44,968 bases of DNA from Candidatus Woesearchaeota archaeon (GTDB taxonomy: Archaea > Nanobdellota > Nanobdellia > Woesearchaeales > ARS49): the NCBI GenBank assembly GCA_023266895.1, contig JAHFOI010000006.1:1-44968 (forward strand). Direction: 5' to 3'. This document shows, piece after piece, positions 16,029 through 36,597 of the stretch. Made by a program: the position numbers and the translations under genes. A model generated the notes under the pieces. The model did no database searches and was not told the DNA's origin. It saw only the letters and a list, made by a program, of their open reading frames with translations. Within the stretch, counting starts at the first letter, position 1, and every line of letters begins with the position of its first letter.

Positions 16029-17306
16029 TTATCTCTCTTGCGAACAAACTTCCAAGACACGCGCAACAACACCCTGAGGAAGCATACCTCCCAAAAAGCG
16101 CGCAGCAACATGCACTGCATGACGACGATACCGCTCCTGCTCAACAGAACAGCAAACATCTGCAAATCCTGGCTCAAGAGCCTTATGAACTTCTTCAGCA
16201 CCTATTGCAATAGGCATTTGAGGAAGCGCAACAGAAACATCATTAAACAAAAAAGAAAAAGGAGTTTCACCAATCACAAGACTATTTGTGCGCACACCAT
16301 GATTAACACCAATTAATTTTCCTTTGGCATTGTACACTGCTCCTCCAGAACAACCCTGAATGGTAAACGCAGTGTTTTGTACATATTGTATACCTTCTCT
16401 GTCAGTGGTGCTCACAGAAACTTTTCCTTGAGTAACTCTGGGCTCAGGACACGCTAGTGGATGTCCAACAGAGTACACAAGTTCATCAGGTTGCAACAGC
16501 TTACCACGTGATGCAAGGCGCGCAACAGGGTATTTAGCTCTCGCATCAAAAGAAAGAAGTGCTAAATCAACACTACTCTTTCCCAACACAACAGCACAAG
16601 AATAAACCCGATTATCAACACCACGGACAGTTACTGGTAGAGCAAATTCCAATTTTCCTGAACCCTCATTCACACGCATACTACCCTCAAGCACATGATA
16701 CGCAGTTAACACAAGATATCTATACCCTTCAGGAATTGCCTGACAAGAAATAATAGTTCCAGAACCTGCATACCCATTATTTTTAATAAAAACACACTGA
16801 TCTCTCAAGCGCTCCATTAAAGGATCAGGCGCCAAGCCCAATGCACGCTCACAGCCTAAGGCATGCTGCGCAGTTTTGCTAATGCGTTTTTCTAAACCTG
16901 CAACAGTATTTGCCTGACCAACCAACTTTTCTGAGAGGTTTTGCGCAAAATCATTACTGCGCGCGGTCGTAGCACTAAATTGTGCATCATTAAGACTTCT
17001 GTCACGCACGATCTCATTAATAATCGCCTGATGAGCTCCAGAACACACTGATTCCTGCTGACTAAGCATTTCCAACAGCTTCTTTTCCTGAGAAACAGAT
17101 TCTGTACGAACTCTCTCTAGTTCAGCTTGAGAGTCCAACATCTTTTTTTTTGTGTCAGCCAGATCAGCAACCAAACCCGCCACATCAGAACTGTGCATGG
17201 CTTCAAGAATATTTTGACGCAGATGCAAGCTCACAGAATCATATGCCACGCCTGCAAGAAGGCCAAGTCCTGCAATCCACGAAGCAACAATCTTCACGCC
17301 ACGCAT
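16029..17306 (-). CDS. Membrane-anchored trypsin-like serine protease
   Basis: The 425-aa protein has an N-terminal signal-anchor (VKIVASWIAGLGLLAGVAY), a long coiled coil (about residues 28-155, Glu/Gln/Lys-rich) and a C-terminal chymotrypsin-fold (Deg/trypsin-like) domain. The catalytic triad is clear: His204 (LTAYHVLEG), Asp247 (SSVDLALL) and Ser320 (IQGCSGGAVY). There is no PDZ domain. The topology places the protease outside the membrane on a stalk. The ATG at 17306 (MRGVKIV) is preferred over one 15 codons upstream that would put Cys/His-rich residues before the anchor. A role in surface protein processing or quality control is plausible. Confidence 0.83.
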   Translation of the reverse strand: MRGVKIVASWIAGLGLLAGVAYDSVSLHLRQNILEAMHSSDVAGLVADLADTKKKMLDSQAELERVRTESVSQEKKLLEMLSQQESVCSGAHQAIINEIVRDRSLNDAQFSATTARSNDFAQNLSEKLVGQANTVAGLEKRISKTAQHALGCERALGLAPDPLMERLRDQCVFIKNNGYAGSGTIISCQAIPEGYRYLVLTAYHVLEGSMRVNEGSGKLEFALPVTVRGVDNRVYSCAVVLGKSSVDLALLSFDARAKYPVARLASRGKLLQPDELVYSVGHPLACPEPRVTQGKVSVSTTDREGIQYVQNTAFTIQGCSGGAVYNAKGKLIGVNHGVRTNSLVIGETPFSFLFNDVSVALPQMPIAIGAEEVHKALEPGFADVCCSVEQERYRRHAVHVAARFLGGMLPQGVVARVLEVCSQER

Positions 17307-20454: not shown

Positions 20455-21348
20455 TTATTCAGACGGTTCTGAACTTTGAATTAGTGTCTGAGGAAGAAAC
20501 GCAACATACTGTTTTTTCTCAAGTCTTTTCCATTCATCAGTTTTCCTAATTAACGGTACAAACTTCCAGGCAGCATCATACATAAAAACAACCATCCTGC
20601 CAGAATTGGTTTGCATTGAATCAGAGGCATCACAAACCGCAGTCACTGCAGACTTCAAATATGCCATCGCATTGCCACACAATGCGCGCCATGCACGCCT
20701 AAATTCAGGAGTGCTTCTTTCAGGAAAAGCTTCTTGCTCTACAAACAAAGGCAGATTCGCATCCATGGAAAGCAAGTTGTCTGTTTCACGAAATAAAGGT
20801 TCTGAAAAGGCAACGCGCACACCATACTGCTTCAGAAGTTGCCAAGAACCTGCCCAAGGAAAACACTTTCTTTGCGCAGGACATGGGGTTTGTTTTTCCA
20901 GATACTCCAAAATAAATAAACACGATTCTTCTGAACTTTTTTCCTGCAAGATAACATCTTTAACAACTGCATTTATACCAAAATCAAGAACCATTCCATT
21001 ACTATTCAAGAACTCATCACGCACTGTATCCTCTAACAACAATACTGGACGTTCTAACCTATGGGTTGCATCATGCTTGAGAATAAACACTACTTTTGGA
21101 TCAAAAGGGATTCCTGGACAAAACTCAAGAGGTACATACCCGCAATTTTTCCCTGCATCAAGTAATGCTTCTGTAGCAGGAGTCCATAAAGGAGCTGAAG
21201 GAATAATGTTCTCCATCCTAAAATATTTGGCAAGCACACAACGTGGATCAAGAGGCGAATCAGGAGCACCACTAATAGCCTGAGAACCTAACAAAAGCCG
21301 TTCACTCACATACCCACACACTGCATCATAACTTTCACGCACTGACAT
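20455..21348 (-). CDS. Hypothetical protein
   Basis: The 297-aa protein is not recognised. It is soluble-looking, with no signal peptide or membrane helix. Notable segments are FCPGIPFDPKVVFILKHD, RPVLLLEDTVRDEFL, PCPAQRKCFPWAGSWQLLK (three Cys) and a helical C-terminal part (EFRRAWRALCGNAMAYLKSA). Seven or more Cys in all is high for this genome. The ATG at 21348 is preceded by an AT-rich stretch with a TATA-like TTTAAAAAC about 25 nt upstream. It stands alone between a repeat relic and a divergent binding-lipoprotein gene. Confidence 0.65.
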   Translation of the reverse strand: MSVRESYDAVCGYVSERLLLGSQAISGAPDSPLDPRCVLAKYFRMENIIPSAPLWTPATEALLDAGKNCGYVPLEFCPGIPFDPKVVFILKHDATHRLERPVLLLEDTVRDEFLNSNGMVLDFGINAVVKDVILQEKSSEESCLFILEYLEKQTPCPAQRKCFPWAGSWQLLKQYGVRVAFSEPLFRETDNLLSMDANLPLFVEQEAFPERSTPEFRRAWRALCGNAMAYLKSAVTAVCDASDSMQTNSGRMVVFMYDAAWKFVPLIRKTDEWKRLEKKQYVAFLPQTLIQSSEPSE

Positions 21349-30060: not shown

Positions 30061-32832
30061 CTATACCTGGTCAATGACGCGTTGCACATCTATCTTACCA
30101 CTTTCTGATTTTGCAACATCCACGCCATCTTCTCCATACTCAAACTGAATTATTCTTCCTGCTGCATCACGAACTGTGTTATCATATTCTACACGAAGAT
30201 CTTGCATTGCGTTGGCGAGTCTTCGATACAAGTATCCGCTTTTTGGCGTTCTCAATGCTGTGTCCATAAGACTGTCTCTGCCTGCCATGCTGCAAAAGAA
30301 AAATTCTTTCGGATTAAGTCCTGACTTAAAGGTATTTGCCACGAATCCTCGTGCTGCTGGACTCAAATCACCTGGTTTAAAACAACTGAGTGTTCTATTT
30401 TTGTAGCCTTTATCAACACGTTTTCCACGCAGTGCTTGCTGGCCTACCATTGCACCCATTTGAACAAGTGATAATACGCTTGCCCGTGCGCCTGAACGTA
30501 CCATGAGAAGTGTTTGGTTTTCTTTAGGATTTTTTGCATAGGCATTCACTATTTCACCACACATGTTACGCGCTTTGTTAAGGCGCTCCATGAGGCATAG
30601 CTCAAGAGTTTCTGGCAGTGTTCTGCTAGGCAAAAGTTCAAGACTTCCGTCATGGAATTTTTTGATGAGCTCCTGACTGTCTTGCTCTGCTTGATCAAGT
30701 ACTGCTTTGACTTTATCTTTTGCTTCTACAACAAGGTCAACATCTGCGCTTGAGGCAGTGAAGCCATGTCGCAAGAGTGTTTCTATGCCAAGACGTGAAA
30801 TATTGTTGAGGATAGTAATGATGTTTTTTGGACCATACTGTTTGTGTAATGATCGTAGCATAAGCCCTTCACCATCACCACCAATTGCTTTTGAGTCAAT
30901 AAATCCTTCAAGAATTTTTCCTTCTTTAATGACGAGCATAGAGCCATCTTTAAGTTTTCCTGTGTAATGGAAGTCTTCAGGCAAGATGAGTGAGAACAGT
31001 TCTGTTCCTGTGATTGTTTCTTTGCGTGGTAGCCTGCTAAAGTCAGTGATGCCAACAGTTGCAAGAAGTTCTATTGCTTCTTTGCGTTGCAGGGTGAGGA
31101 ATCGTGTGAGCAAATAATTGCCTGAGATGCCGTCTTGCGTGCAACCAATCACGCTAATCCCAAACTTAGGCGATACTATCTGAGTTTGTACTTCCATGAG
31201 AAGTTCTGCTTCTGCGCGTCCTTCTTCGCTTTGTGGGATGTGCAAGTTCATTTCGTCGCCATCAAAATCTGCGTTGTAGGGTGCACACACTGCTGGATTA
31301 AGACGGAGTGTTCGTCCTGGTAGCACTTTGACGCGGTGGCACATCATGCTCATTCTATGCAAGCTTGGTTGTCTGTTGAAAATGCTTATATCTCCATCAA
31401 GCAAGTGTCGTTCAACAACATATCCTGGCTGGAGTTCTTCAAGAGCTGCTTCTTTGGTTTCTTCAGTGATTTTTTTCTTTTTGCCATCAGGGCGTATAAT
31501 GTAGTTTGCACCAGGATACTCTCCAGGTCCTTTGTTCACAAACTTTTTCAGGTAGGCCATGTTCCAGTCATTGACTATTTCTGGCACCGTAAGCTTCATT
31601 GCAATTATGCGTGGCACCCCAACTTCATTGATACGAATCATTGGATCTGGGCTAATGACTGTTCGTGCGCAAAAATTAGTGCGTTTGCCTGCAAGATTGT
31701 GACGAATGCGTCCTTCTTTGCTTTTGATACGTTCAGTGATTGTTTTTAGGGGCTGACCACTTCTGTGTCGTGCTGGAGGCAGTTGTGGCACGTTATTATC
31801 AAAGAAGGTGGTCACATGGTATTGTAACAAGTCCCATAAGTCTTCAATAATAATTTCTGGAGCTCCTGCGTTTATGTTTTCAAACAAGCGTTGGTTGATT
31901 CGTACAATGTCGCCGAGCTTGTGTGTGAGATCATCTTCTGAGCGCTCGCCTGTTTCAAGAGTAATGCTTGGTCGTACAGTGACTGGGGGAATTGCAAGAA
32001 CAGTGAGTATCATCCATTCTGGTCGTGCAACAACTGGATTAAGACCAAATAGTTCGCAGTCTTGGTCTGGCACTCGTTCAAGTCGTGCGCGTACCTCAAC
32101 AGGCATAATTCTTCGGTCGTCTTCTACAAAGCTGGTTGGTTTTTCAATCTTAACTTTTATTTGTTTTGCTTTGCAATGCGGGCATTTGTTTGTTGTTTTC
32201 AAACTTTCAATTACTTGCTTGATTGCTTTGCGTCGAGCTTCTATGCCTTCTTCACGCTCTATGCGTTCAAGGAATGTTTTGAATTTTTCATGTTTTTCTT
32301 GAGGCACAAGTATTCTGCCACAGCTACCGCATGTGGATTTAAGGATTAAGTAAATAACTGGCACAAATTTGAGGTGGACAACAGGTCGTGCAAGTTCTAC
32401 ATACCCAAAGTGACCTATGCATTCTTTGAGCTTGCTACCGCAAGTTTTGCATCTGAGTCCTGGATCAATCACCCCAAGTCTAATGTCCATCAAACCACCA
32501 TCAACTGGGTAGCCTTCTTTGTCATATAATTCTGGAGTGACTATTTTTGCTGAGGCCATTTTCTTAATCATTTTTGGGGAAAGCAAGCCAAACAGTACTG
32601 ACTTGACTTGTTTGAATACATGCCGCGTGATGCCTTCTGCAGTTTCTCTGCTCATACCTTCAGGTCGCTTGATAGTTGGTTCTACTGGAATAATTGATTC
32701 TGATGGAGTAACAATTTCTGTTTTTGCAGGTTTTGCCTGTGCTGGTTCTGCAGGAGTTTTCTCTTCTTGTGTAGTAAGGACTATGCGTTCAGAGTCTGCA
32801 CTTTTTTCTGTTTCTTGTTTCTTTTTTGGCAT
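30061..32832 (-). CDS. rpoA1: RNA polymerase subunit A' (catalytic)
   Basis: The 923-aa subunit contains the catalytic motif YNADFDGDEMNLHIPQ with three Mg-binding Asp residues. The N-terminal zinc site is CKTCGSKLKECIGHFGYVEL, and a second Cys cluster follows (CGSCGRI, CPHCKAK). The start at 32832 gives a Lys/Glu/Pro-rich extension of about 50 residues before the conserved SPKMIKKMASAKIVTPELYD, longer than the usual archaeal A' N-terminus. GAGG lies about 9 nt before this ATG. The extension may be a lineage trait or include untranslated sequence, but no better downstream ATG with a ribosome-binding site was noticed. Confidence 0.97.
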   Translation of the reverse strand: MPKKKQETEKSADSERIVLTTQEEKTPAEPAQAKPAKTEIVTPSESIIPVEPTIKRPEGMSRETAEGITRHVFKQVKSVLFGLLSPKMIKKMASAKIVTPELYDKEGYPVDGGLMDIRLGVIDPGLRCKTCGSKLKECIGHFGYVELARPVVHLKFVPVIYLILKSTCGSCGRILVPQEKHEKFKTFLERIEREEGIEARRKAIKQVIESLKTTNKCPHCKAKQIKVKIEKPTSFVEDDRRIMPVEVRARLERVPDQDCELFGLNPVVARPEWMILTVLAIPPVTVRPSITLETGERSEDDLTHKLGDIVRINQRLFENINAGAPEIIIEDLWDLLQYHVTTFFDNNVPQLPPARHRSGQPLKTITERIKSKEGRIRHNLAGKRTNFCARTVISPDPMIRINEVGVPRIIAMKLTVPEIVNDWNMAYLKKFVNKGPGEYPGANYIIRPDGKKKKITEETKEAALEELQPGYVVERHLLDGDISIFNRQPSLHRMSMMCHRVKVLPGRTLRLNPAVCAPYNADFDGDEMNLHIPQSEEGRAEAELLMEVQTQIVSPKFGISVIGCTQDGISGNYLLTRFLTLQRKEAIELLATVGITDFSRLPRKETITGTELFSLILPEDFHYTGKLKDGSMLVIKEGKILEGFIDSKAIGGDGEGLMLRSLHKQYGPKNIITILNNISRLGIETLLRHGFTASSADVDLVVEAKDKVKAVLDQAEQDSQELIKKFHDGSLELLPSRTLPETLELCLMERLNKARNMCGEIVNAYAKNPKENQTLLMVRSGARASVLSLVQMGAMVGQQALRGKRVDKGYKNRTLSCFKPGDLSPAARGFVANTFKSGLNPKEFFFCSMAGRDSLMDTALRTPKSGYLYRRLANAMQDLRVEYDNTVRDAAGRIIQFEYGEDGVDVAKSESGKIDVQRVIDQV

Positions 32833-32856: not shown

Positions 32857-34659
32857 TCAGTATTTTGTTTTGAGTATGAGCTTTGGATATATGCCAAGGC
32901 TCTTGAACTCGTCTAGTATGAGTTTAAATGCATAGCTGATTTCTATGTCTGTGACTTCTACGTTGTCACCACAAATCGGGCAGTAGCGTTTTTCTTTGAT
33001 TTGGTCGTGAATTGCAATAATACCACACTGCTCGCATACTGGTACTATGGTTTTGTCTGAATCAAAGCGTTCTTTGAGCAGGAGGCTTGCGCCGTGAGCG
33101 ACAAACGTATCTTTTTCCATCTCACCAAGTCGTAGTCCTCCTTCTTTGGCTCTACCTTCCGTGGGCTGGCGCGTGAGGAGCTGGACTGGCCCTCGCGCTC
33201 TGCTTTGGATTCTGTTCGCAACCATGTGTTTGAGTTTGAGATAATATTGATTTCCTATGAATATGCGTGCCTGCATGCGTTCGCCTGTGATGCCATTGTA
33301 CATTGTTTCTGTGCCTGTTTCGTGAAAGCCAAGGCTTGCAAGCTCTTTGCGTAATGCTTCTTCTGGTTCTGCAGAAAAGGTCGTGGCATCAATTTGTCGT
33401 CCTGCAAGTGCGCCAACTTTTGCACCAATAAATTCAAGCATGTGACTGACTGTCATTCTGCTGGGAATTGCGTGCGGGCTAAAGATAAGGTCTGGGGTCA
33501 TACCTGATGCTGTAAAGGGCATGTCTGTTTCTGGCACAATAATGCCAACAACGCTTTTTTGTCCGTGCCTACTAATGAATTTGTCACCTATTTCTGGCAT
33601 GCGCGTGTCACGAATTCTGACTTGCACTAGTTTGTTGCCTTCTTCATTTTCTGTGAGGAGGACAAAGTCTACTGATCCTTCTTCTCCATGCTTGAGAGCG
33701 ATTGAGCTTTCTCTGCGTACATTGCTTGCTAATGAATATTCATCCATGCTGCTGAGGAAGCGTGGTGGGCTTGTTTTGCCAATCACAACTTCTTCTTCTT
33801 TGACTTTTGCTTCAGGATAAATAATTCCATCATCTTCTAAATGACGATAGTCACGTTCGCTTTTGTAGCCTTGTACATCTTTGCCTGGAATGCCAAGCTC
33901 GTCCATGAGACCCCCACTATAGCGCAGTTCTTCTGCTATTGCGGGCCTAAAGTACGTGCTTCTTCCAAAGCCTAACTGAATACTACTCTGATTAACAATA
34001 ATTGCGTCCTCCATGTTGTAGCCTTTATAGCACATGATGGCAATGACTGCGTTTTGACCATGAGGATGTTTTTCATAACCCACAAGCTCATGCGTCATTG
34101 TGGTGACCACAGGATTTTGTGGATAATGAAGAATATTGACATCCATGTCCATGCGTTGTGGATAGTTTGCAGTGTATAGTCCTATGGCTTGTTTTTGGTT
34201 TTTTCCACCAATTGCAAGACGTGCGCTTTGAATGAAGTTTGCAAAGGGCACAAGGCTTGTGGTAATGCCAAGCATTGCGAGTGGAGAAATTTCAAGATGA
34301 GTGTGTTGCGGGGTGAGCTCTTCAGGTGTGTATGCCACAAAGCAGTTTTCTTCTTCTGCTGCATCAATATATTCTATGATACCTTGCTCAACCAAATCAT
34401 TCCAGGAAACCTCATTTTTTTCTAATTGTTTTGCATGACGATCAGTAAAAAGTGGGGCGCCATTTTTTACTATAATAAGTGGTCGTCGGGCGCGTCCATT
34501 GCCCGACTCAACATACACTGCATCAAGCACTTCATCATAGTGCACATTGGTTGTGCCTGGCATGACTGCACGTCGGCGTTCTTCACGTATGCGATTTGTA
34601 AACTGACTGCCTTGTTCAACTTGCCCAAGGTATTTGCCATTTAAGTATACTTCACTCAT
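32857..34659 (-). CDS. rpoB1: RNA polymerase subunit B'
   Basis: The 600-aa C-terminal part of the second-largest subunit. Key motifs are GYNMEDAIIVNQSS, KFISRHGQKSVVGIIVPE, LIFSPHAIPSRMTVSHMLE and GGLRLGEMEKD. A C-terminal zinc ribbon CEQCG...CPICG follows. The split B''/B' form is found in methanogens and many DPANN archaea. It overlaps the rpoB2 stop by 4 nt and is followed by rpoA1 after 24 nt. Confidence 0.97.
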   Translation of the reverse strand: MSEVYLNGKYLGQVEQGSQFTNRIREERRRAVMPGTTNVHYDEVLDAVYVESGNGRARRPLIIVKNGAPLFTDRHAKQLEKNEVSWNDLVEQGIIEYIDAAEEENCFVAYTPEELTPQHTHLEISPLAMLGITTSLVPFANFIQSARLAIGGKNQKQAIGLYTANYPQRMDMDVNILHYPQNPVVTTMTHELVGYEKHPHGQNAVIAIMCYKGYNMEDAIIVNQSSIQLGFGRSTYFRPAIAEELRYSGGLMDELGIPGKDVQGYKSERDYRHLEDDGIIYPEAKVKEEEVVIGKTSPPRFLSSMDEYSLASNVRRESSIALKHGEEGSVDFVLLTENEEGNKLVQVRIRDTRMPEIGDKFISRHGQKSVVGIIVPETDMPFTASGMTPDLIFSPHAIPSRMTVSHMLEFIGAKVGALAGRQIDATTFSAEPEEALRKELASLGFHETGTETMYNGITGERMQARIFIGNQYYLKLKHMVANRIQSRARGPVQLLTRQPTEGRAKEGGLRLGEMEKDTFVAHGASLLLKERFDSDKTIVPVCEQCGIIAIHDQIKEKRYCPICGDNVEVTDIEISYAFKLILDEFKSLGIYPKLILKTKY

Positions 34660-36143
34660 GCGTTCACCAGTTTTACTCCAAGATTTTTTAGTGCTTTTAA
34701 GGTATCTTGTTCAGAAGTTGTTTTTGTAACTGAGGCAAGAAGTGCAAAATTTTTCTTAAGACCAATGTTTGTTCCTTCAGGAGTTTCACTAGGGCATAAA
34801 CGCCCCATGTGCGTGGGATGGAGTTCGCGTGCGGCAAAGTTTTCTTGAGTTGCTGAAAGCGGGCTGACCACACGCTGCAAGTGGCTGACAGTATTAAGAT
34901 AGTTAAGTCGCTGAATGCGTTGGCTAATACCTTTTCTTCCACCAACCCAACTGCCTGTTGCCATGCTTGAATAAATTCTGCTCGTGAGGAGTTTTTCGCG
35001 AATAATGACTTTAATGCTTGGAAACTTGCCTCGTTTGACTATACGCTGGAAGTTATACATCATGTCGCCAATAAGTACTTTAAGATTTACACGGAATAAG
35101 TCTGCAAGCAAGTCACCAGCAAGTTTGAGGCGTTTGTTCATGTAATGATCTTTGTTGTCAACAGGCGCTTCGCCACTACTAACAAGAATGTATTTTTTCA
35201 GCATTTTACACAAGTTGTGTGCTTTAGCTAAGCGATCTTCTTTCCGCAGCCCAATGTGAGGTAATAAATATTTATCAAGGAGTTCTATGACGCGTTCATT
35301 ACGTATTTCTTTTGATTGGGTAATGCCTAAGTGTTTAGCAATTGCATCCATAGCGTCATCAAATGTTTTAATACTAACATGCTCAAAAAGGTTGATGAGC
35401 ACATCATCAAACTGACGCTCTTTGCTGACTGCAGTCATGATGTCTTCATCTTTGAGCAATCCAAGTGCTTTCAGCACCACAACAAGCGGTACTCTACGTA
35501 CACGTGTGAAGGTAAGATAAAACAATCCATCTTTCATGCGTTCCAAACTGTGCGGTATTTTGTAACTTCCTGATTCTGAAAATAATTTACCCACAAACTG
35601 ACTTGGCCCTGTTGATGCTTCTTCTACAAGCACGTGATTGCTGGCAAGATCTTCAATATTGACAAGCACGCGTTCAGTTCCATTAATGATAAAGTAACCT
35701 CCTGAGTCATCAGGGTCTTCGCCTTTCGCAATAAGTTCTTCACGATTAAGCTTGCTTAAATGGCAAAAATTGCTTTTGAGCATGACTGGCAAGCTGCCAA
35801 TTTGTGTGGTAAAGGTTTCTCGTTGAATTTCATTGATGTGTGCGCTTACTTCAAGAAATACTGGCGCAGCATAACTTATTTTTCTTAGGCGTGCTTCAAC
35901 AGGGTAAATATCACGCTTGCTTCCATCAGCTTCAGTGAGTTCTGGTTTTGTCACCCAGATTTTGTCAAGCTTGATTTTGAAAGAATCAACATTTGGTGGA
36001 ATAATTGTTGGCTCTATGAGCTTGTTTTCTTCAATGATTGACTGAAGTTCTTGCTCAATGAACTGGTTAAAACTTTCAATGCTTGAGTTCACAAAACTGT
36101 GCTGGTCAAAATATTTTTTGATGAGAAGTCGTGCGTTGTTCAT
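34656..36143 (-). CDS. rpoB2: RNA polymerase subunit B''
   Basis: The 495-aa N-terminal part of the second-largest subunit (protrusion and lobe): YPVEARLRKISYAAPVFLEV, GGYFIINGTERVLVNIEDLA, GSWVGGRKGISQRIQRLNYL and ELHPTHMGRLCPSETPEGTN. It ends soon after, at the point where B' begins. It overlaps rpoH and rpoB1 by 4 nt each, so the three are translationally coupled. Length is normal for a split B''. Confidence 0.97.
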   Translation of the reverse strand: MNNARLLIKKYFDQHSFVNSSIESFNQFIEQELQSIIEENKLIEPTIIPPNVDSFKIKLDKIWVTKPELTEADGSKRDIYPVEARLRKISYAAPVFLEVSAHINEIQRETFTTQIGSLPVMLKSNFCHLSKLNREELIAKGEDPDDSGGYFIINGTERVLVNIEDLASNHVLVEEASTGPSQFVGKLFSESGSYKIPHSLERMKDGLFYLTFTRVRRVPLVVVLKALGLLKDEDIMTAVSKERQFDDVLINLFEHVSIKTFDDAMDAIAKHLGITQSKEIRNERVIELLDKYLLPHIGLRKEDRLAKAHNLCKMLKKYILVSSGEAPVDNKDHYMNKRLKLAGDLLADLFRVNLKVLIGDMMYNFQRIVKRGKFPSIKVIIREKLLTSRIYSSMATGSWVGGRKGISQRIQRLNYLNTVSHLQRVVSPLSATQENFAARELHPTHMGRLCPSETPEGTNIGLKKNFALLASVTKTTSEQDTLKALKNLGVKLVNA

Positions 36144-36382
36144 GCGTTCACCACACGACGGTAAAAGATGGCATGACCTGCAGTCATACTTTTGCGCGTT
36201 ATTTTAATGATTTCACCTTCTTTTGCATCAAGACCTTCAAGTGCTGGGTCTCGCGCAAGAATACGAGGCAGTTCTTTAATGCCTTGCAGTCCATACTTTT
36301 CCAAAAGCTCTTTTTTACCTTGTTCGCTAAGCTTTTGGTGTTTAGGCACAATGACGTGCTGTGTGATGTCTGGTTTTGCCAT
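36140..36382 (-). CDS. rpoH: RNA polymerase subunit H
   Basis: The 80-aa protein is the archaeal RpoH/Rpb5 C-terminal homologue: HVIVPKHQKLSEQGKKELLE, YGLQGIKELPRILARDPALE and GEIIKITRKSMTAGHAIFYR. The start at 36382 (MAKPDITQH) is required, because the in-frame sequence upstream is the tRNA-Lys gene. It opens the polymerase operon. Only 15 nt separate its ATG from the tRNA 3' end, so its mRNA 5' end may be made by tRNA 3' processing. Confidence 0.95.
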   Translation of the reverse strand: MAKPDITQHVIVPKHQKLSEQGKKELLEKYGLQGIKELPRILARDPALEGLDAKEGEIIKITRKSMTAGHAIFYRRVVNA

Positions 36383-36411
36383 GTGGTTTGCTCGTAACGG
36401 GCCGGACGGGA

Positions 36412-36460
36412 CATTCGCAGACCGGCTATGGTAGCGTTTGTGTGCCGTATAGCTGGTTGT
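36412..36460 (-). other. tRNA-Lys intron 3 (49 nt, T-loop, 59/60)
   Basis: The T-stem is the outer helix. The central helix TTCG/CGAA is a perfect 4 bp, with bulges AAA and TGT. The inner helix starts CA/TG and continues, after an internal loop, with CC-GCTAT/ATAGC-GG pairing. Removal restores TTCGAAT in the T-loop. Confidence 0.87.
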
Positions 36461-36482
36461 TTCGAACCCGCGACCACTCGCT

Positions 36483-36522
36483 TTCATTCAATTAATTTCG
36501 TGAATTCACAAAACTAAGTTGA
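36483..36522 (-). other. tRNA-Lys intron 2 (40 nt, anticodon loop, 37/38)
   Basis: At the common archaeal position one base 3' of the anticodon. The anticodon stem is the outer helix. The central helix CTTT/AATG has one U-U mismatch, the bulges are TAT and AAA, and the inner helix begins CAA/TTG. A hairpin TTTTGTG-AATT-CACGAAA caps it. Removal gives loop CTTTTAA. Confidence 0.87.
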
Positions 36523-36540
36523 TAAAAGGCGAGTGCTCTA

Positions 36541-36558
36541 GTGCCCGAACATTGTTCT
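36541..36558 (-). other. tRNA-Lys intron 1 (18 nt, D-loop, 19/20)
   Basis: Reads AGAACAATGTTCGGGCAC. The fold has outer helix GCTC/GAGC, 3' bulge ACT, a 4-bp central helix GCCT/GGGC (one G-U pair), 5' bulge GGA and inner helix GAAC-AAT-GTTC. Cutting after the second base of each 3-nt bulge leaves ...CCTGG and TAGAGC..., the canonical D-loop. Confidence 0.85.
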
Positions 36559-36597
36559 CCAGGCTGAGCTACCGGCCCGTGAATGATATATGATTGT

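Follow-up and report, generated by a model that had tools for sequence, protein, structure and literature searches.

The woesearchaeal DNA analyzed here (44,968 bp; the window) carries on its minus strand a 181 nt gene, with its 5′ end at bp 36578 and its 3′ end at bp 36398, that encodes a tRNA-Lys(UUU) interrupted by three introns. We think it very likely, with a probability of about 0.88, that this is a functional gene, apparently the only one for tRNA-Lys(UUU) in this organism, and that its three introns are removed by the endonuclease EndA and its exons joined by RtcB. A reading made from the sequence alone (the sequence-only reading) had placed the gene at 36398-36578, which is correct, and had proposed introns of 18, 40, and 49 nt in the D-, anticodon, and T-loops. 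Excision of these inserts (107 nt in total) leaves a 74 nt mature tRNA-Lys(UUU) including G73, GGGCCGGTAGCTCAGCCTGGTAGAGCACTCGCCTTTTAAGCGAGTGGTCGCGGGTTCGAATCCCGTCCGGCCCG, which ARAGORN accepts as tRNA-Lys(ttt); the same program makes no call on the unspliced genomic form. Over the whole window, both ARAGORN and the Rfam tRNA model report tRNA-Arg(TCG) alone, in agreement with the expectation that ordinary tRNA scans would miss the interrupted gene.

The gene is divided into four exons. Exon 1 (bp 36559-36578) contains the 5′ acceptor strand, the 5′ strand of the D stem, and the D loop to G19, and is followed by the 18 nt D-loop intron at position 19/20 (bp 36541-36558). Exon 2 (bp 36523-36540) contains the 3′ strand of the D stem, the 5′ strand of the anticodon stem, and the anticodon loop, with its UUU anticodon, to A37; the 40 nt intron at the canonical position 37/38 (bp 36483-36522) separates it from exon 3 (bp 36461-36482), which runs from A38 through the 3′ strand of the anticodon stem, the variable loop, and the 5′ strand of the T stem into the T loop as far as A59. 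The 49 nt T-loop intron at 59/60 (bp 36412-36460) precedes exon 4 (bp 36398-36411), which supplies U60, the 3′ strands of the T and acceptor stems, and G73; CCA is not encoded. The anticodon-loop intron is assigned from its splice element, and the other two from their splice elements together with pairing register and covariation in relatives. Only two splice placements yield the mature sequence; they are offset from each other by 1 base at the anticodon intron, which in one of them falls at the canonical 37/38. Removal of the inserts gives the complete canonical cloverleaf of archaeal tRNA genes with bulge-helix-bulge (BHB) introns, with stems of 7/4/5/5 bp that are Watson-Crick paired throughout except for one G-U in the T stem.

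The RpoB'' protein encoded beside the tRNA gene is 71-74% identical to its counterparts on Candidatus Woesearchaeota contigs, and the host, previously thought to be DPANN-like, is indeed a member of that group, a woesearchaeon. On the same minus strand the tRNA gene is followed by rpoH (bp 36140-36382), whose start lies 15 nt beyond the 3′ end of the tRNA, and then by rpoB'' (bp 34656-36143), rpoB' (bp 32857-34659), and rpoA' (bp 30061-32832), and the tRNA/rpoH synteny is conserved in relatives. The tRNA would be transcribed ahead of this rpoH-rpoB''-rpoB'-rpoA' operon. A scan for sigma-70 promoters, a model that is uninformative for archaea, found nothing.

At each of the three sites a 4 bp central (H) helix between the 5′ exon and the 3′ end of the intron, flanked by 3 nt bulges that hold the cut sites, can be drawn in the standard register, and the central helices and bulges of the sequence-only reading are reproduced. 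The D site has the H helix GCCU/GGGC (4/4 pairs), a 5′ bulge GG^A, a 3′ bulge AC^U, and an inner helix GAAC/GUUC. The anticodon site is relaxed: its H helix is CUUU/AAUG (3/4, with a U-U mismatch), its bulges are UA^U and AA^A, and it has a long inner hairpin with GTGAATTCAC. The T site has UUCG/CGAA (4/4), a 3′ bulge UG^U, and on its 5′ side AA^A with a weak inner helix. These structures are not in every case those that free folding prefers. In an unconstrained fold of the isolated D arm an unbulged 7 bp helix is favored, and the D-site BHB does not have the lowest free energy; at the anticodon site a longer, competing hairpin is favored over the BHB by about 5 kcal/mol. When the cloverleaf and the D element are fixed as constraints, the H helix and 3′ bulge of the T site arise unaided, with a 5′ loop of 5 nt and not 3 nt. 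On these structural grounds we regard the elements at the D and T sites as good BHB candidates and that at the anticodon site as relaxed. The elements stand above chance, since the exons rebuild a full orthologue of the tRNA that relatives carry at this locus, and the register signal of the H helices, discussed below, greatly exceeds that of shuffled sequences. Splicing would proceed by pairing of each 5′ exon with the intron 3′ end over 4 nt (at the anticodon site, over 3 of the 4), which should place the cut sites in small, BHB-like bulges; EndA would then cut both bulges and RtcB would ligate the exons, in three rounds, at 19/20, 37/38, and 59/60, with one EndA presumably performing all three cuts. 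The order of these rounds need not be fixed, since no exon or intron base is shared among the three elements.

When the region upstream of rpoH in relatives is aligned to a tRNA-Lys template with introns permitted, a tRNA-Lys orthologue is found there in 46 genomes, the window's included. Eight of these orthologues have no intron, 20 have one, 15 have two, and three have three, so that 38 of the 46 syntenic genes bear introns (in the T loop in 26 and the D loop in 12). After ambiguous anticodon-arm cases were re-read, the insertion sites across the 46 are 59/60 (n = 26), 37/38 (n = 19), and 19/20 (n = 11), with 20/21, 30/31, and 53/54 each used once. The triple pattern 19/20, 37/38, and 59/60 recurs in two relatives, L118 (G033) and L128 (G043), and its three bearers belong to three different families. 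Thus such a gene is not unexpected for this lineage, as it had been thought to be. The single other genome of the same genus (G001, 76% complete) gave no rpoH match, and among those of its tRNAs that contain the TAGCTCARCCTGG motif there is no Lys(UUU). At L046, L047, L048, and L051 a tRNA-Asp(GUC)-like gene lies upstream of tRNA-Lys(UUU), with T-loop introns at 59/60 in several relatives.

Across the genes compared, H-helix pairs form in 44 of 44 cases at the D site (shuffle maximum 29), 57 of 64 at the anticodon site (shuffle maximum 44), and 100 of 104 at the T site (shuffle maximum 61), in shuffle controls from which shared ancestry among the relatives is not fully removed. Pairing is maximal at the exact BHB register alone, and the signal disappears when the register is slid. 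It is also maintained by compensatory change: at the T site, counted together with the T stem (97.7% paired, 16 double-change cells), pair 57 changes from A-U to G-C and pair 55 from U-A to C-G, and at the D site (100% paired, three double-change cells) the variants GCCU/GGGC, GUCC/GGAC, and GCUU/GAGC are found. The clearest cases are T-site pair 57 and the D-site change between GCCU/GGGC and GUCC/GGAC. Exact-register pairing and compensatory changes together indicate that the inserts are EndA-type introns under selection, to judge from these alignments. Seven of the 26 T-loop introns are only 13-15 nt long, a length that leaves no room for a genuine inner helix, and relaxed bulge-helix-loop cutting is therefore likely needed in relatives; L113 and L092 have such short T-loop introns. 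The Lys(UUU) gene at L120 (G029) has the T loop TCCGAA, with C55 replacing U55, and its intron H strand is changed to match.

The assembly is fragmented and of the MAG type, and one could suspect that the inserts arose as errors of sequencing or binning, or that they are mobile elements of unrelated origin, for example self-splicing introns. The artefact reading is refuted by equivalent introns at the same positions in the independent named assemblies L045, L046, L047, and L051. At 18, 40, and 49 nt the inserts are also far below the size of group I or II introns, which argues against self-splicing, and we give this family of explanations practically no credence.

The gene might instead be a decayed or insertion-broken pseudogene, with a normal tRNA-Lys(UUU) gene elsewhere; the presence of three inserts, the relaxed anticodon site, and the draft state of the assembly could each be taken to point that way. 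The source genome (1.09 Mb in 52 contigs) is estimated to be 100% complete, and none of the 43 above-cutoff Rfam tRNA matches in it is a Lys(UUU). A BLAST search of the genome with the 74 nt mature sequence returns the four exon pieces at this locus, all other matches being weaker, partial, and to other tRNAs; an intact, intron-free copy, which the sequence-only reading had proposed to look for, is thus absent from the 52-contig draft assembly by both searches, with a small residual chance that one lies in a gap between contigs. A D-arm pattern search for additional hidden tRNAs in this genome gave known genes and two likely chance matches only, and did not locate tRNAs for Thr(UGU) or Arg(CCG). 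The lack of a second copy, the intact stems of the exons, the conservation of the syntenic gene across the order, and the confinement of almost all inserts to a handful of shared sites at which H pairing is under selection all make a pseudogene very improbable, and favor a functional gene whose introns are spliced out.

Other tRNA genes of this genome and its relatives are similarly interrupted. The tRNA-Ala(UGC) gene of the same genome (contig C34, bp 35550-35716, minus strand; L042), which lies just downstream of the 16S rRNA 3′ end, has a 22 nt intron at 37/38 and a 73 nt intron at 59/60, each with an H helix of 4/4 pairs. Anticodon-arm introns occur in about half of the tRNAs detected in the genome. 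Many relatives estimated to be >90% complete give only 9-21 Rfam tRNA matches. In G035, a single contig of 1.3 Mb (L141-L160), ARAGORN finds no tRNA in the first 400 kb, whereas an intron-tolerant scan of the same 400 kb recovers five or more tRNA genes. All of these are interrupted, three within the T loop; the scan also yields many low-scoring or tail artefacts, and only full-stem reassemblies were counted, by eye. Woesearchaeota tRNA sets can thus appear incomplete when genes are interrupted and not lost.

Two further genes in the source genome deserve mention. A class-II Ser-like tRNA with G73, a long variable arm, and a GAA anticodon (C13, bp 21011-21229, minus strand; L043) has a 134 nt T-loop insert with a poor BHB; it may represent either an atypical tRNA or one in decay. 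A tRNA at C34, bp 16590-16691, minus strand (L027) has an apparent Ile(UAU) anticodon, and no typical Ile2(CAU) tRNA was recognized in this genome. An Ile(UAU) anticodon has reportedly been seen in ARMAN-2.

Both proteins that such splicing would use are encoded in the same genome, which contains an RtcB ligase gene and one EndA gene of the alpha type (174 aa), whose catalytic Tyr, His, and Lys are present by alignment to solved structures. Exactly one above-cutoff EndA is found in 53 of 57 genomes. EndA lengths in relatives are mostly 165-211 aa; one of 257 aa has an unaligned N-terminal stretch and probably owes its length to start choice. The sequence-only reading had implied an endonuclease of (alpha-beta)2 or epsilon2 type, and neither is supported by what is found. 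Searches of the genome for a beta subunit (PF01974, PF02778, and the NCBIfam beta model NF007085, E<=10) return only the same EndA locus, although a very divergent beta would be beyond the reach of these models, and a 174 aa protein is not the three-unit fusion of ~395 aa that marks epsilon2. The CSL/ASL insertion (11-18 residues with a conserved Lys, before the alpha-unit core) is absent from all 30 aligned woesearchaeal EndAs; the S. tokodaii chain has an insertion there and the EndA of this genome does not. In the aligned woesearchaeal proteins the L10 region (VDDEGD) is acidic, as in the M. jannaschii alpha4 enzyme and unlike the S. tokodaii and N. equitans alpha subunits. A single gene of ~180 aa with the catalytic Tyr/His/Lys and an acidic L10 is the alpha4 pattern, and by these features the protein is probably an alpha4-like homotetramer.

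It may also be that the introns are as described but are cut by an (alpha-beta)2 nuclease, with a structural beta subunit so divergent or so short that it escapes recognition, as in Nanoarchaeum equitans. The woesearchaeal EndA is close to the N. equitans alpha subunit in its AxKNRVAHST motif and C-terminal Trp (the latter also resembling S. tokodaii alpha), beta subunits may be as small as 96 aa, and the N. equitans enzyme is an (alpha-beta)2 of broad specificity (PMC6379350). We nevertheless regard a hidden beta subunit as unlikely, given the lack of a second locus at E<=10, the single EndA in nearly all of the genomes, and the acidic L10. The CSL/ASL loops of (alpha-beta)2 and epsilon2 enzymes have been tied to broad specificity, and alpha4 has been called narrow (PMC6379350, PMC12397907), so relaxed sites may be cut inefficiently by an alpha-only EndA that has neither loop. 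That a single homotetrameric alpha EndA without CSL or ASL handles the D-, anticodon-, and T-loop introns of Woesearchaeota, including those of 13-15 nt with bulge-helix-loop elements, is an idea we hold tentatively, at somewhat below even odds.

Triple-intron tRNAs (Thermoproteales, red algae, nucleomorphs) and multi-intron tRNAs (Asgard archaea) are already known; the new, and unproven, part would be a heavy intron load paired with an alpha-only, loop-less EndA. The load seen here calls into question the association of complex tRNA introns with EndA CSL/ASL loops; if the pairing is true, a loop-less alpha EndA would offer one more way to achieve broad splice-site specificity and would break the proposed rule of loops with complex introns. 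The gain and loss of introns also become testable, since the same tRNA gene is available at one conserved locus in some 46 natural versions that have gained or lost introns at a small number of fixed sites. No paper on woesearchaeal or DPANN tRNA introns was found in the open-access literature.

Among known systems, the Thermoproteales have triple-intron tRNAs such as Pyrobaculum islandicum tRNA-Pro(UGG), with introns at 25/26, 37/38, and 56/57 (PMC4090602). Like that gene, the woesearchaeal one has three BHB-type introns, one canonical and two non-canonical, but it belongs to a different taxonomic order and its sites (19/20, 37/38, and 59/60) differ in position, and the Thermoproteales, which are Crenarchaeota, have an (alpha-beta)2 EndA with a CSL, whereas in the woesearchaeon neither a beta subunit nor a CSL was found. 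The Guillardia theta nucleomorph also has a triple-intron tRNA (PMC4090602). The red alga Cyanidioschyzon merolae has a tRNA-Ile(UAU) with introns at 12/13, 37/38, and 53/54 (PMC9602550), the same D/anticodon/T arrangement with different insertion points; it is a eukaryote with a Sen-type endonuclease, and there splicing was shown by RT-PCR. In ARMAN-2, another DPANN archaeon, an epsilon2 EndA processes both BHB and bulge-helix-loop introns (PMC12397907, PMC6379350); unlike it and the crenarchaeal (alpha-beta)2 enzymes, with their ASL or CSL, the woesearchaeal EndA is a single alpha unit with neither loop in the 30 proteins aligned. The view that triple-intron tRNAs are mainly a Thermoproteales trait is out of date, since in the Asgard Atabeyarchaeia and Freyarchaeia 92-95% of tRNA genes have introns, and over half of the genes have several (PMC11291895; the endonuclease is not mentioned in its main text). 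These Asgard archaea and the woesearchaeon belong to different phyla, but both are uncultured, non-crenarchaeal archaea with many non-canonical and often multiple tRNA introns.
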